A stretch of 29,830 bases of DNA from a virus: IMG/VR virus record IMGVR_UViG_3300027538_000010, positions 1 through 29,830 of that record; one strand, 5' to 3'. This document shows positions 8,320 through 19,423 of the stretch, piece by piece. The first letter of the stretch is position 1. Each line of letters starts with the position of its first letter. The notes under the pieces are model-generated. The model was given only the letters and a program-made list of their open reading frames with translations. It ran no database searches and was not told the origin of the DNA. The translations under genes and the position numbers were made by a program.

Positions 8320-8970
8320 ATGGCGTCAACAGATAAGACTGCGTATGTGTACATTTGGTTCAGTCCAGATTGGGTGCCATTTTATGTAGGCATAGGCAAG
8401 ACATCAAGCCGATGGAATCCGGCTCGGGCCAAGCACAAAGATCGAAACTCCCACTGCATGCGCTTAATTGCAAAGTACGGCGCAGAAAATGTTCGCGTCC
8501 ACAGATTCTTCAAACTGTCTTGGGAAGATGCATGTGCAATGGAGCGATCTCTTATCGCGCACTTCAAAAGAATTTCTGACGGTGGAACCCTAGCCAACTT
8601 TACCGACGGGGGAGAGGGAGTTTTAAGCCCAAGGCAAGAAGTTTTGAAGAAAAAGCGCGAGGACTTACTAAACCCGGCAAATCCAATAAGGGAATACCAC
8701 AAGATCTTGAATTCTGACCCGGAGATCAAAAAACGGCGCGTTGAAGGCATCCGTAGCGCACAAGAAAAAAGACGTGAAAAAATGTCAGACCCAGTAGCGC
8801 TGGCGCAGCGAAAAGCCAGACTCACAGAAACCTTAACATCTCCAGAGTATTTGGCTAGACGTGCGCTATGGGATACACCAGGTTCAGAGTACCGGGCCAA
8901 GCTGTCCGCAGCCAGAAAGGCATACTGGGAACGCAAGCGGTTAGAAAAATTCATGTCAACCCCCGAGTAA
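8320..8970 (+). CDS. GIY-YIG homing endonuclease, only plus-strand gene
   Basis: This is a 216-residue protein with a GIY-YIG nuclease domain in residues 9-90: VYIW in place of GIY (Tyr11), FYVGIGK for YIG (Tyr22), Arg31 in SSRW, and the metal-binding Glu75 in AMERSLIAHF. The C-terminal half is very basic, with repeated short helices (KKKREDLLNPAN, EKRREKMSD, RKARLTETLTSPEY, RKAYWERKR) that resemble NUMOD3-type DNA-binding segments. No Shine-Dalgarno sequence precedes the ATG, and a possible promoter lies immediately upstream. The gene runs against all others; its 3' end overlaps the endolysin gene by 15 nt and its start lies 14 bp from the tail gene start. This fits a free-standing selfish endonuclease inserted between two phage genes. 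The long reverse-strand frame opposite it is an antisense shadow. Confidence 0.85.
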   Translation: MASTDKTAYVYIWFSPDWVPFYVGIGKTSSRWNPARAKHKDRNSHCMRLIAKYGAENVRVHRFFKLSWEDACAMERSLIAHFKRISDGGTLANFTDGGEGVLSPRQEVLKKKREDLLNPANPIREYHKILNSDPEIKKRRVEGIRSAQEKRREKMSDPVALAQRKARLTETLTSPEYLARRALWDTPGSEYRAKLSAARKAYWERKRLEKFMSTPE

Positions 8971-9402
8971 CGCGCACTCTGCTGTACGCCGTTTAACAAG
9001 GCCGGGGAGAACGCGCCCGCCACCTCTGGTCCAGAGCATCAATTGTTCCTTGGCTCCGTCCCAGTCTTGGGCGTTGATTTTCCTCTTTAATGTGCTTGTC
9101 TGCAAGCGTCCAACGCCCAGGTTATAGCAAAAATCTACGATGGCATTACAGCGCTTTTCATCCGTCAGCAGGCCAGGGCAGTTACGTAGAACCCCGGGTA
9201 GGAAGGTGTGCTGCAGCTCATACATGAGGAGGGCGGACGCCCGGGCGTCGTCGATATGGGGATCCTGGAGGGTAACCTTGCGGCCGTCCTCGTAATAGGT
9301 GGATCCATAGCCAATCGTTGGAATCCCAGCCGGGCATAGGTAGGGGGCGGACCGAAAGCCCTCAAACTGCTTACACAGCTTAGCAGCCAAGTCCAGATTC
9401 AT
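8956..9402 (-). CDS. Endolysin, T4-type lysozyme (GH24)
   Basis: This is a 148-residue muramidase that would cleave the N-acetylmuramic acid-N-acetylglucosamine bond of peptidoglycan. Catalytic positions fit the spacing Glu-8-Asp/Cys-5-Thr: Glu14 in FEGFRS, Cys23, and Thr29 in TIGYGST. Cys therefore replaces the usual Asp, a known variant in phage lysozymes. Further family marks are FCYNLGVGRLQTSTL and the C-terminal GLVKRRTAECALL. There is no signal peptide or signal-arrest helix, so export depends on a holin. The start ATG overlaps the holin stop (ATGA). The last 15 nt overlap the convergent endonuclease gene. Confidence 0.92.
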   Translation of the reverse strand: MNLDLAAKLCKQFEGFRSAPYLCPAGIPTIGYGSTYYEDGRKVTLQDPHIDDARASALLMYELQHTFLPGVLRNCPGLLTDEKRCNAIVDFCYNLGVGRLQTSTLKRKINAQDWDGAKEQLMLWTRGGGRVLPGLVKRRTAECALLGG

Positions 9403-15725: not shown

Positions 15726-16139
15726 TTAGTTAGATGAACGTATTAAAGCCGACGTTGCCGTGTTCTGCGGCATCGTGACCGTAAAGTTGGTGGATGTCTT
15801 GTCAGACCCAAAGTCCAGCACGGCAATTGATTTGTTGCCCTGGGATGCGTTGTAAATCAGCGCACACCGCGCCGTCACACTAGCATTGAACGCAACGTTG
15901 GCAAAGTTGACATAGACCGTATACCCAGACGTCTGGATAGTAATGCCCGTCATCTGAACCCCGCCAGCTACATAACCCGTACCAGTCACCTCGTTGGTAG
16001 AGGAATATACGGTTGTATCTTCGTTCAGGTTTGCATTGGCGTTGTACAGTGCCATGTAAATATCGTCCACGAGAAGGTTGTGAACACCCTCGTAGAGCTC
16101 GGCCTTGAAGCTGGTGGTCTGGGTTTGAACAATGCTCAT
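15726..16139 (-). CDS. Conserved small virion protein, unknown role
   Basis: This is a 137-residue protein whose ATG 16139 overlaps the connector-gene stop (ATGA). The sequence starts SIVQTQTTSFKAELYEGVHN followed by DIYMALYNANANLN, then a beta-rich domain with EVTGTGYVAGG and ALIYNASQGNKSIAVLDFG. I recognise the pattern from phage structural clusters, where it is usually left as hypothetical. The beta sandwich-like composition and coupling to a connector gene suggest a tail or head-tail component. No signal peptide, membrane helix or catalytic motif is seen. Confidence 0.75.
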   Translation of the reverse strand: MSIVQTQTTSFKAELYEGVHNLLVDDIYMALYNANANLNEDTTVYSSTNEVTGTGYVAGGVQMTGITIQTSGYTVYVNFANVAFNASVTARCALIYNASQGNKSIAVLDFGSDKTSTNFTVTMPQNTATSALIRSSN

Positions 16140-16795
16140 GACACCGGCACCCTAACTTGGCCGTCTCTGTATGCGTCCATACGCTGCTTCCCGTCGCCAA
16201 GGTTCTTCAAGAGAGCAATTGCCTGCACATACCGATCGCTGTACAGCTTAACCATATCTTGCTCTGCCTTGGTATAGGTAGCGGCTTCCATCAAGGTGCC
16301 ATACAACAACGCAGAGTCAAAGTTATCACCCAGCCACGTGCGCCCATCCGCCGCGTCCACAATGGACTCGGGCAGGTAGAAGTAATGCAACTCAACCTCG
16401 TAAGACAGATCAGGCGTGGGGCCCAGGATAAAGCTCAGCTCATCCTCGTTATCTGACCGGGGGCCAAAGATCGCGTAGTGCTTGGGCTTGCCACGGTACG
16501 CCGCTGCCGTGCTTGGATAGGCTTCACGGATGAAGTTCACGTCCTTGTTGAGCAGGTACAGATACTCGCTATCAGAGATAACGGCAATCGAATACACCGA
16601 CAGAAAGTCCGTGGGGCACTGGAGATACTTATTCCCTACGGTAGCTGTACCCGTCACGTTCTTACGCAAAGACGCCAGCTGCACCGTGTTGTAGATGCGC
16701 TGCTCCGCCTGCTTGATGAAGGTGTCAATGTTACTTGTCGGGAACGAGTTCTCTATATAGTCATTAACTGCAGTTACGAGTTCTTGGTAATTTAT
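16136..16795 (-). CDS. Head-tail connector/adaptor protein without a canonical start codon
   Basis: The frame is open from the codon directly after the endonuclease stop (16798-16796) down to TGA at 16136. Residues begin (I)NYQELVTAVNDYIENSFP, then IKQAEQRIYNTVQLASLRKN, which is the expected N-terminus of a phage adaptor protein. Yet no ATG, GTG or TTG occurs until GTG 16684, which would remove 37 well-formed residues. The first codon after the stop is ATA, and AGGGTGG lies 8 nt before it. Further on are FLSVYSIAVI, GKPKHYAIFG and the long helix ALLYGTLMEAATYTKAEQD. It would join portal and tail. The start assignment is inferred; the coding frame is secure. Confidence 0.75.
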   Translation of the reverse strand: MNYQELVTAVNDYIENSFPTSNIDTFIKQAEQRIYNTVQLASLRKNVTGTATVGNKYLQCPTDFLSVYSIAVISDSEYLYLLNKDVNFIREAYPSTAAAYRGKPKHYAIFGPRSDNEDELSFILGPTPDLSYEVELHYFYLPESIVDAADGRTWLGDNFDSALLYGTLMEAATYTKAEQDMVKLYSDRYVQAIALLKNLGDGKQRMDAYRDGQVRVPVS

Positions 16796-17626
16796 TTAAG
16801 CCACCCTAATCAAAGTGTACTGCCTGCACACCTTGCCTTTCTGCTTAACCGCGTTTGCTACCGCCGAGCGGACTACGCCAAAATAATCGGCAGCGTGGGT
16901 TTGACTCAAAAAAGAAATCTGCAATTCAGGACAAAACACCGGCCGCCATTTGGCACGTGCCGATTGTGCTATAGATTCGGGTTTTTGTGTGCGCCCTTTT
17001 GATACCTCAGAGCGCTTTAGCTTTGCTTCAGGCGTAGAGAATGTCGCCTTCTGGCATGCAATACGTGCCTGACGAATATTTGGGTCTTGCCAAGACCTAG
17101 ACACAGATTCTGCTCGATTTTTTAGCTCCGGGAGGGGCCTTACATACCCGGCCCAACGAAGCCTGCCGCCTCCAAGAGCGCCTAGACGCTTGCCATGCAA
17201 AATACCTTTTGGCGTGTTGTAAGCCTGCTTAATAGACTCAACTGTTTTGGCGCGCCATTCAGGATCTGACCAGCGCTTTTTGGCTGCGTCGGACCTCTTT
17301 TTCTTTGCCTCATCTGAATAGGACCTGGGCCGTAGCCCTGCGCCTCCAAGAGAGCTATTGTACGTTGGCTGAAACTCGGCAATCAACGCAATCTCAGCAA
17401 CGTTTAGCTGAGCCAGATCGAACGCAACATATAGCGAATCTACTAAAAACGCATTTGTTCCGTATTTGGCAATCGCCTCGTGCAGCTTATATTTTTTAGC
17501 CGTCTTACAAGACGCTATGCGCACATGCCCCTGCCAACGCTTAGAAATAGATTGGCGCGTCTGTCCTACATACTGCTCACCAGTAACAGTATTGGTTACA
17601 AGATAGACAGCCCCAGCTTCAGTCAT
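16796..17626 (-). CDS. GIY-YIG homing endonuclease inserted before the adaptor gene
   Basis: This is a 276-residue protein. The nuclease domain (residues 5-95) has AVYLVTN (Tyr8), EQYVGQTRQS (Tyr19), Arg30 in SKRW and metal-ligand Glu78 in NVAEIALIAEF. Residues 105-230 hold NUMOD3-like DNA-binding segments (SYSDEAKKKRSDAAKKRWSD; later STPEAKLKRSEVSKGRTQKP). The C-terminus (SFLSQTHAADYFGVVRSAVA) resembles the helix-turn-helix of intron-encoded nucleases. ATG 17626 has GAGG five to six bases upstream, just after the previous stop. Its own stop TAA is followed at once, in the same frame, by the adaptor coding sequence. It probably cleaves cognate sites in related phages lacking the insertion. 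Confidence 0.9.
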   Translation of the reverse strand: MTEAGAVYLVTNTVTGEQYVGQTRQSISKRWQGHVRIASCKTAKKYKLHEAIAKYGTNAFLVDSLYVAFDLAQLNVAEIALIAEFQPTYNSSLGGAGLRPRSYSDEAKKKRSDAAKKRWSDPEWRAKTVESIKQAYNTPKGILHGKRLGALGGGRLRWAGYVRPLPELKNRAESVSRSWQDPNIRQARIACQKATFSTPEAKLKRSEVSKGRTQKPESIAQSARAKWRPVFCPELQISFLSQTHAADYFGVVRSAVANAVKQKGKVCRQYTLIRVA

Positions 17627-17633
17627 ATCAACC

Positions 17634-17900
17634 TCAGGCCATCGGGCCTCGTGCCATCACACCTTTGGTAGCCGCACCAGTGCCACGGATCTTGATGCCA
17701 TCCGTCTTGACCGGCTGATCCCCTGCAGCTTTGCTAACCGCGCCAACCGAAAGGTTGTACGTGTCCAGCTTGCTACGATTGGGGCTCTTGCCAGGGTTCT
17801 CTTCAATCTTCACGGCCTTACCCTTCATGGTGTGGGGCTCAGCATAGACGCTGGCCTGGCCAACTTCTTTACCCATAACTTTTTTGCTGTATGTGGCCAT
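17634..17900 (-). CDS. Small basic protein with DGI/ATKG motif, unknown function
   Basis: This is an 88-residue, Lys- and Gly-rich protein with GGAGG before ATG 17900. It begins ATYSKKVMGKEVGQASVYAE and ends KTDGIKIRGTGAATKGVMAR. The tail shares the spaced DGI...R/KG...KG pattern with three genes of the 19.7-20.8 kb cluster. No cysteines, membrane helix or enzyme motif are present. It is likely a small virion or DNA-associated protein, but this is only inferred from charge and location. The endonuclease gene begins 7 nt after its stop. Confidence 0.7.
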   Translation of the reverse strand: MATYSKKVMGKEVGQASVYAEPHTMKGKAVKIEENPGKSPNRSKLDTYNLSVGAVSKAAGDQPVKTDGIKIRGTGAATKGVMARGPMA

Positions 17901-17901
17901 A

Positions 17902-18093
17902 TTAGCCTCCGCGAGAGCTGGATTTCTGGTTCATGGCACGGGCCAGGTTGCGTCCGTACTTCTTCATGTTCGCAGAAGTGACACCACCCTTGGCCAGCTT
18001 GGTCATGGGCTTGCCAGGATGCATCTTGGCTTCGTGCTTATGCACGGCAGATGCCACCATCTTCTTGTCTTGCGCTAAGTCTTTTTTGTCCAT
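17902..18093 (-). CDS. Small basic protein with KGG motif, unknown function
   Basis: This is a 63-residue protein with AAAGGAG before ATG 18093. It starts DKKDLAQDKKMVASAVHKHE, continues AKMHPGKPMTKLAKGGVTS, and ends ANMKKYGRNLARAMNQKSSS. It is strongly basic and His/Lys/Met-rich, with two short amphipathic helices. The AKGG tetrapeptide recurs in other small genes of this region. I have seen this pattern among uncharacterised phage proteins. A nucleic-acid or capsid-lining role would fit the charge but is not demonstrated. Confidence 0.72.
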   Translation of the reverse strand: MDKKDLAQDKKMVASAVHKHEAKMHPGKPMTKLAKGGVTSANMKKYGRNLARAMNQKSSSRGG

Positions 18094-18104
18094 TTCTGGC
18101 TCCT

Positions 18105-18488
18105 TTAAGATACCGATACTGTACCAACACTTGTCGTCCCAACCAAGTAGTTTGGGGTGAGACCAACATCAAAAAAACTAGATCCGCCAACCGGAGCCCA
18201 GCCCCACTGGATATCCCGGGAACCACCAGAAGGGAAGCCATTCGCATCCAATCCAGCGGTGTAGTACGTCGTGTCCGGTCTTGGCTGACGCACGGCCTGC
18301 GGATCATCAACCGGGTACATGCCCAACTGCAACTGCGGCTGGTCAGGATCCCAGCACTCCGGGCAAACCTTCAACTGGTACAGCTTGGTCTTGATGACCT
18401 CAAACTTGAGCTGCTTGAGCTTGAAACGAAAGCCACAGCGATCGCACTGCGAGATCGCAAATTTGCCGGATGAGAACCTTTGGCCCAT
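18105..18488 (-). CDS. Zinc-ribbon structural-region protein
   Basis: This is a 127-residue protein. Two CxxC pairs (Cys15/Cys18 in QCDRCGFRF and Cys42/Cys45 in VCPECWDPD) are 23 residues apart and form a zinc-ribbon-type knuckle. The middle (PQLQLGMYPVDDPQAVRQPR) is conserved-looking, and the C-terminus is Gly/Ser-rich beta. The ATG shares one base with the upstream stop (TAATG), so it is coupled to the connector-like gene. Zinc ribbons usually bind nucleic acid or stabilise small folds; within a head-tail module, either a virion component or a regulator of late expression is possible. The family is familiar to me from phages, the function is not. Confidence 0.78.
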   Translation of the reverse strand: MGQRFSSGKFAISQCDRCGFRFKLKQLKFEVIKTKLYQLKVCPECWDPDQPQLQLGMYPVDDPQAVRQPRPDTTYYTAGLDANGFPSGGSRDIQWGWAPVGGSSFFDVGLTPNYLVGTTSVGTVSVS

Positions 18489-19423
18489 TACGGGGTACTC
18501 CCGCCAATGAACTGCTGGCGAGGCACAAACCGTAGCGGTGCCTTCTCATGATCTTCACCTGCGGCCAGGGCAAACTGCTCGTCATAAGCAGCCTTCAGCA
18601 TGTCTACTCGGGGCATCAGCTCTGGCACCTTCATGGCAATGTAGTAGGCCAACCCAGCTGCTACGGCCGGCAGGAAACGAAAGTTCATGTCCCCCGTCTG
18701 AATACCTGATCCAGCGTCTTGGATACGACGCATGCGCCAGTAAACAAACTGATAAGTTGTGGAGCTATCAGGGGTTGGCCAAACTGTTACAGCCGGCAAC
18801 TGGGGCACAAACACAGCCGTGCCAGTAATGTGGCTGGCAGCAGTAGTGTTGTTCTGGGCCCGGAAGCATCCACCCAGAGAGTTGCCGTCGATGTAACCGT
18901 AATAAATGATCTCTGAATCCAGCTTGATGTAGCCAGCGCCCGCAAGACCCACCGTAGAGCTTAGAGGAATGGTGGTTGCGGTAGCGTTTAGAGCACCATC
19001 CAGTAGCAGGTCGGTGGGATTGGTTTCGCCAGACAGACGCTGGATCCAGACCTGGATGGGGCGGGCCTGGGTCAATTTGTTAGGGATCGTCGCATAGGTA
19101 GAAACGCTAATACGGGAGATCGTCAAGTCAGCCTGGGTGGAGGAAACGTTGGCCCCCGTACGAATAACCTGGTCCAACAAGTCAATCGTGTCCAGCGGCA
19201 ACGGATACGTGCTCAGACCTGGAACCAACGTAATAGAGCCTTCTTCGATGGTCCACATGTTCAGGCCACGGTTAGCCCATTCAATGGTCATCAGGTTCAT
19301 GGACCGGCGAGCTGTACGCAGGTCGTAACCAGTCCGCATCTCACGACCGGCACGCTCCCATGCTTCCTCGGCTAATTCCGTGAACTCAAGGTTAAATGCG
19401 GTGGTGCCAGTCGTGTAGCTCAT
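18488..19423 (-). CDS. Head-tail connector/tail structural protein
   Basis: This is a 311-residue protein whose ATG 19423 overlaps the previous stop (ATGA). The N-terminal half is helical with FTELAEEAWERAGREMRTGYD and SMNLMTIEWANRGLNMWTI, a layout found in phage connector proteins. A beta insert follows (TTIPLSSTVGLAGAGYIKLD, then EIIYYGYIDG). The C-terminal region is again helical (FRFLPAVAAGLAYYIAMKVP, ending LRFVPRQQFIGG). It is encoded among head-completion genes, well before the fibre genes. I favour a connector or tail-hub role; a tail-tubular-A-like protein is the alternative. Confidence 0.72.
   Translation of the reverse strand: MSYTTGTTAFNLEFTELAEEAWERAGREMRTGYDLRTARRSMNLMTIEWANRGLNMWTIEEGSITLVPGLSTYPLPLDTIDLLDQVIRTGANVSSTQADLTISRISVSTYATIPNKLTQARPIQVWIQRLSGETNPTDLLLDGALNATATTIPLSSTVGLAGAGYIKLDSEIIYYGYIDGNSLGGCFRAQNNTTAASHITGTAVFVPQLPAVTVWPTPDSSTTYQFVYWRMRRIQDAGSGIQTGDMNFRFLPAVAAGLAYYIAMKVPELMPRVDMLKAAYDEQFALAAGEDHEKAPLRFVPRQQFIGGSTP

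Follow-up and report, generated by a model that had tools for sequence, protein, structure and literature searches.

A free-standing GIY-YIG homing endonuclease gene (HEG) lies on the start codon of a virion structural gene in the 29,830 bp stretch of virus DNA analysed here (referred to as the window), and the structural gene, which encodes an SU10-type adaptor (the connector), now opens with ATA immediately behind the HEG stop codon. Insertions of this kind recur among connector genes, and comparison of the sequences reveals loss of the ATG, continued translation of connector codons 2-19, a conserved RNA hairpin, and a Shine-Dalgarno (SD) sequence placed at a set distance. We consider it probable that the HEG homes to the adaptor start codon and brings with it a structured non-AUG start module that initiates the adaptor at AUH (AUA, AUC or AUU). 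In the mechanism we propose, the HEG would home to this site in a large group of uncultured phages and would take its translation start, leader included, from the adaptor gene; the adaptor would then be started from a module consisting of a 7-bp RNA hairpin, 5 nt, a GGUG SD, three bases, UAA, and AUC, AUU or AUA, with initiator tRNA decoding the AUH as fMet. The hairpin could keep the SD and the AUH accessible, or it could anchor a ribosome newly terminated at UAA by folding behind it, favouring restart.

The features concerned, all on the minus strand, are as follows.

17634..17900, minus: small upstream gene (88 aa, ending RGPMA and stop), which directly precedes the connector in HEG-free relatives (ORF list; same order in L002-L081)
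17624..17636, minus: leader and start codon that first belonged to the connector (TGAGGTTGATATG), now those of the HEG (identical leader before HEG-free connectors; 5' boundaries of HEG copies)
16796..17626, minus: GIY-YIG homing endonuclease gene, 276 aa, ATG to TAA (Pfam GIY-YIG; PHROG 314; motif residues)
16811..16835, minus: predicted RNA hairpin, arms 16835-16829 (CAAGGTG) and 16817-16811 (CACTTTG), 11-nt loop (covariation; codon-preserving null; covariance model)
16801..16807, minus: SD-like AGGGTGG, 5 nt before ATA (GG at -10/-9; duplex energy -7.1 kcal/mol)
16796..16798, minus: HEG stop codon TAA, directly adjoining the connector start
16136..16795, minus: connector (SU10 adaptor family), 219 aa plus stop (Pfam PF24175, 1.9e-24; predicted fold similar to phage adaptors including SU10)
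16793..16795, minus: ATA, probable connector start codon, ATC or ATT in relatives (aligns with ATG/GTG of HEG-free connectors; selection test)
16682..16684, minus: GTG at codon 38, the earliest canonical start in frame (N-terminal helices 3-14 and 20-37 would be lost if it were used)

The junction and its two genes

The HEG stop codon is followed without a gap, and in the same frame, by ATA AAT TAC CAA, with the ATA at 16795-16793. The initial annotation had described this arrangement, together with the absence of any ATG, GTG or TTG for a further 37 codons, and both observations hold: the first such codon is the GTG at 16684 (codon 38). The two putative ribosome sites that it pointed out, TGAGGTTGATATG and AGGGTGG, are also present where described. 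It had further considered that a corrected sequence might read ATG at 16795. The same ATA junction is found in contigs L125 (3 mismatches and 1 gap in 8057 bases relative to the window) and L142 (0 mismatches and 1 gap in 3004), both of which may derive from samples related to the window's; because these two further contigs share the junction, the ATA is not a base error, and sequencing error was rejected as its source. A chance junction was ruled out by the occurrence of TAA-ATC or TAA-ATT at 30 or more further distinct connector loci.

The connector qualifies as an SU10-type adaptor by both sequence family and fold. Pfam SU10_adaptor (PF24175) aligns to its frame from residue 2 onwards (E 1.9e-24), and Foldseek matches its predicted structure to phage portal-tail adaptors, SU10 among them, at a TM of about 0.6. 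The closest adaptors of named phages are only about 33% identical to it. A second, divergent SU10_adaptor match is present in the window at 18488-19423 (minus strand; PF24175, 3.3e-7, 311 aa) and falls in the same structural cluster; two adaptor proteins are also annotated in the named phage DSL-LC04.

The HEG scores 24.3 bits against the GIY-YIG domain PF01541 (cut-off 22.6) and matches the PHROG 314 homing endonucleases at 2.6e-19. Residues Y8, Y19 V20 G21, R30, E78 and N90, mapped by analogy onto the motifs of I-TevI, are invariant in 10 relatives. No relative of this HEG family was detected in the 84,980 species genomes scanned and, given also the low identity to named adaptors, we found no cultured example of the arrangement. 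The window contains a second GIY-YIG-type HEG (8320-8970, plus strand; PHROG 314, 3.2e-9), which overlaps the 3' end of an opposite-strand lysozyme-like gene (8956-9402, minus strand). An intein was ruled out as an explanation of the junction by the TAA that separates the HEG from the connector.

Insertion at the connector start

The initial annotation proposed that the insertion lies at the connector's original start and that the HEG has taken over its ribosome site, and suggested comparison with relatives lacking the insertion. This comparison bears out both proposals: in relatives without the HEG, an ATG follows the same leader at the point of insertion, and the connector N-terminus is unchanged. 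Among 80 connector relatives in IMG/VR nearly all start with ATG or GTG, mostly right behind the gene ending in RGPMA, and the exact leader of the window precedes an ATG (TGAGGTTGAT-ATG) at the HEG-free connectors of L037, L048, L054 and L059. The closest HEG-free relative, L002, lacks the HEG and has a connector ATG at the insertion point; over the 2.9 kb that lead up to the HEG it matches the window at about 96% identity, and past the insertion this drops to 68-77% across the connector's first 200 bases and to some 55% more than 1.1 kb away. Close relatives thus differ in whether the HEG occupies this site, and flanking identity breaks there in the manner left by conversion. From these alignments the recombination breakpoint sits at the HEG insertion, as homing predicts, and the element would presumably be mobile through cutting of such empty sites. 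The empty-site relatives and the drop in identity together indicate that the HEG occupies the codon at which the connector originally started, and that it uses the connector's leader and start. At the 5' boundaries of other copies the HEG likewise begins where the connector began, whatever the phage leader, and in L213 and L360 it still opens with the connector's first codons.

The connector start appears to be a hot spot for several HEG types, as seen in L006, L008 and also L024, which has an HNH-like gene. In L006 a different GIY-YIG-like gene (1023-1718) shares its first seven residues with the connector (MTYNELV), and the connector restarts with a duplicated ATG N-terminus. L144 (2700-3135) and L151 (2100-2527) are near-identical in the upstream region and in a HEG remnant, yet their connectors differ at a dS of about 1.9, from which it follows that they recombined at the HEG-connector junction when the HEG was already dead. 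We had entertained long-term vertical keeping of AUC in this remnant and rejected it in favour of junction recombination.

Recurrence and loss of ATG

Connectors were collected from three sources: a junction pattern in which the last base of the start was left open, a scan with the HEG family in which the junction was unconstrained, and a scan with the second HEG type. The HEG-family scan, run without reference to the junction, agreed with the junction-pattern scan, and L013 and L020, found through the connector alone, also have a TAA-ATC junction. The 116 distinct connectors in IMG/VR start with ATG (59), ATC (24), TTG (11), GTG (10), ATT (9) and ATA (1), and the remaining two (ACG and CTG) have an ATG a few codons upstream. 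All 34 distinct AUH connectors (24 ATC, 9 ATT and 1 ATA) are preceded by a single type of HEG C-terminus or by what remains of it, and none of the HEG-free connectors among the 116 has an AUH start. On a tree of 111 connectors, built with the start codon left out of the alignment, 17 changes are needed to account for the AUH label, and well-supported branches force no fewer than 11 of them. These sequence comparisons indicate that the HEG has repeatedly landed on the codon that starts an essential structural gene of these phages.

Within this HEG family a second class is distinguished by a different C-terminus. The connectors behind it start with TTG (10), GTG (1) or ATG (1), mostly in an overlap with a TGA stop; both classes therefore mostly avoid ATG. 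The members of this class (L216-L231) mostly have a TTG start in a TTGA overlap, where HEG-free relatives usually have ATG. The three other HEGs at the connector start (L006, L008 and L024) have left an ATG. A scan with GGTGGCNTAAATG yielded, among the matches listed, ATG cases before a connector (L294/L287) that have neither HEG nor hairpin. The absence of ATG could mean that the adaptor is made in smaller amounts or under IF3 control, or that the rebuilt junction is shielded from cutting by the endonuclease, and in part it may reflect shared descent of the cassette, in which third-base substitutions are few.

Translation of the connector from AUH

In the AUH genes the next canonical start can be anywhere from codon 6 to codon 59. 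Initiation at the first such codon, GTG at codon 38 in the window, would give a shortened connector, and the GTG at 16684 is certainly present, as are TTG or GTG codons at position 6 or 7 in some relatives; several AUH genes, the window not among them, thus have a possible start there. The position of the codon is not conserved, however, and truncation at codon 38 would delete two helices (3-14 and 20-37) that are predicted with high confidence (pLDDT block means 85-96). Selection was measured in 13 independent pairs of AUH genes in which no canonical start precedes codon 20. Between the members of these pairs, codons 2-19 differ by 72 synonymous and 66 nonsynonymous changes, which gives a dN/dS of 0.142, compared with 0.152 in the remainder of the same genes and 0.159 in codons 2-19 of ATG/GTG genes. 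Codons 2-19 are therefore under purifying selection like the rest of the gene, and are translated in these genes, where the AUH is the sole codon at the family start position. We regard a shortened product as quite improbable, and the AUH itself is most likely the initiating codon. The earlier suggestion that the connector begins at ATA with AGGGTGG as its ribosome site accordingly remains, on the sequences, the most likely of those considered.

An SD-like sequence, GGUG in nearly all, lies a few bases before every AUH. All 34 AUH junctions have an SD duplex at or below -4 kcal/mol, compared with 75% of HEG-free starts, and the GG is at -10 in 34 of 34 and at -9 in 32 of 34. The two HEG codons that contain it keep a third-base G and the amino acid of the first one varies (AGG/ATG/AAG, then GTG); retention of the third-base G despite the amino-acid change points to selection on the RNA. 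As in infC, a conserved AUH with an SD thus occupies the start position of the family.

The HEG stop and the AUH touch, in the same frame and with only TAA between the two reading frames, at 32 of the 34 distinct AUH junctions, an arrangement that would suit readthrough of TAA, as the initial annotation had offered as an alternative. The connector would then form the C-terminal portion of a fusion with the HEG, in which the Ile codon is simply an internal one, and {AUA, AUC, AUU} is indeed exactly the Ile codon set. At the ATC junctions of L206 and L212, however, the HEG is read past the ATC in another frame, and upstream of the ATC the connector's own frame stays open for just 10 codons and contains no start. 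In L129, L147 and L159 hardly any HEG is left and the AUH is retained; L159 has only about 3 HEG codons (a remnant of ~15 nt) and still has the SD, stop and ATT. An SD placed at fixed spacing would also be without a role. TAA, moreover, is commonly taken to be the tightest stop codon. We judge readthrough to be very improbable. Since AUH also serves connectors whose HEG is a remnant, the proposal that connector amount is tied to that of the endonuclease is weakened as well. The AUC connectors of L206 (1102-1173) and L212 (2798-2869) have a strong GGAGGTG and no adjacent stop, and the standard hairpin is missing or altered.

Initiation at AUH has its own difficulty. AUU, AUC and AUA are known to initiate in E. 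coli, but weakly; for AUA the figure of Hecht et al. 2017, as quoted in PMC12864459, is at most about 1% of AUG. Such weak AUA initiation is thus odd for a virion protein, which counts against the explanation we favour, as do the ATC junctions of L206 and L212 without a hairpin in standard form and L159 without any hairpin. IF3 opposes non-AUG initiation, as at infC and sigR (PMC5472188); when ribosome recycling factor is lost, ribosomes can initiate at non-canonical codons that lie beyond a stop, and re-initiation is aided by an SD (PMC2268962).

A conserved RNA hairpin at the HEG 3' end

A stem just upstream of the SD was first suggested by folding single junctions. In a gap-free alignment of 28 distinct junctions its seven pairs form in 196 of 196 cells, 30 of which are changed on both sides, and double-sided changes occur in five of the seven pairs (C-G to U-A, A-U to G-C and G-C to C-G). 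The covariation score is 0.466 compared with 0.218 in shuffled alignments (none of 500 as high) and 0.04-0.13 in the slid control (maximum 0.133). RNAalifold recovers the identical helix unaided. Because the region codes for protein, we also used a shuffle in which synonymous codons for the same amino acid are swapped among sequences: none of 5000 such shuffles matches the observed pairing, and in the set of 37 junctions, where pairing is complete (259 of 259), the best of 2000 shuffles reached 247. These shuffles ignore relatedness, which the slid control preserves. In every full copy 15 nt separate the end of the stem from the AUH. The window hairpin scores 57.4 bits against the covariance model, whose rows included the window copy (L173). 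Rfam has no known structured RNA family that matches the hairpin, whether at gathering score across the window or with the limit relaxed to E 5 for 16000-18200, and it may be a new RNA element within the cassette. An outer stem in the window fold (TTAAGC with GCTTAA) is not conserved and was dropped.

A scan for the hairpin followed by GGTG and TAAAT, with the last base of the start and the next gene unconstrained, found 77 contigs, all of which have the pattern before a connector and 76 of which have all seven pairs; the starts are ATC in 56, ATT in 19, ATA in 2 and ATG in none. In L361 (2988-3030) the loop of the hairpin is shorter, and GGGTAAACCC and a TTG start come after it; this is the only copy seen that combines hairpin and canonical start.

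With an insertion right behind an AUG and a conserved hairpin at fixed distance, it might be asked whether the HEG segment is spliced out, or bypassed by the ribosome with the hairpin as signal, so that the upstream AUG is joined to codon 2; by sequence alone the AUH is indistinguishable from the end of an intron. However, Rfam searches found no group I or group II intron or other family at gathering score in the window, nor up to E 5 in 16000-18200, the ~15-nt remnant in L159 keeps its AUH although the hairpin is gone, and a well-placed SD lies directly before the AUH. Removal or bypass is scarcely credible on this evidence.

The hairpin lies inside the HEG coding sequence, and phage HEG transcripts are known to have regulatory structures or processing sites (PMC2988022), so it might serve the HEG or its DNA, as a binding site or in decay of HEG mRNA, rather than connector translation, with AUH as a tolerated by-product. 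Against this, reduced HEGs that could not encode an endonuclease (L129/L455, L099/L147/L157, L454, L465 and L013) retain the hairpin with all seven pairs, the SD and the AUH, and the distance to the AUH is fixed in every full copy. We think this explanation unlikely. Initiation or re-initiation at AUH, on the preferred reading, would instead be aided by the hairpin; it is helpful at most and not indispensable, since L159 does without it.

A stronger form of the proposal is that hairpin, SD, UAA and AUH constitute a compact mobile RNA element that actively directs AUH initiation, in which AUG is selected against and which has been spread by homing and become necessary to the phage; its persistence after death of the endonuclease would then follow from the dependence of the phage upon it. 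We put this forward tentatively, as something that may well be so but that we would not yet expect. The same reserve applies to the parallel that it would create, a bacterial counterpart of structured initiation and re-initiation elements. The initial interpretation is in part upheld by these findings; the recurrence, the spread across AUC, AUU and AUA, and the upstream hairpin formed no part of it.

Comparison with known systems

Each ingredient has precedents: HEGs are known beside essential genes of phages, and both non-AUG starts and re-initiation have been described. In the literature searched we found no mobile element whose insertions have repeatedly left an essential gene with an AUH start served by a hairpin-SD module of the element's own. 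If the proposal is correct, a virion protein gene in many phage lineages depends on start codons that bacteria are thought almost never to use, and gene callers would consequently miss or truncate the connector. A selfish gene would have settled on a triplet that a gene cannot lose, taking the start codon and supplying a replacement, and the hairpin-SD-AUH module would offer a small testable system in which structure and termination bypass start-codon proofreading.

The cassette resembles the T4 seg genes, which are free-standing GIY-YIG genes (PMC2988022), in being a selfish cassette between essential genes with host-gene expression signals and recombination tracts. The seg and mob genes of T4 are intergenic and have cut sites hundreds of bases or more away (PMC2988022), whereas the window-type cassette is on the start codon itself and has a replacement AUH start module. 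Aeh1 mobE in nrdA and T4 mobA in gene 60 also interrupt an essential gene that must function but, as far as they are described in PMC2988022, those insertions split the gene in two; here the start codon alone is displaced and re-supplied. The non-AUG start recalls infC, with AUU (AUC in Streptomyces), and sigR, with GUC, both repressed by IF3 (PMC5472188). Those are single host genes, whereas here the weak start is on a mobile element, recurs across phage lineages, varies between AUC, AUU and AUA, and lies behind a conserved hairpin. As in termination-reinitiation (PMC2268962, PMC6728339), the stop touches the start and the SD is inside the upstream gene; unlike the classical cases, the start is non-AUG and the AUH is kept in remnants that have no intact HEG upstream.
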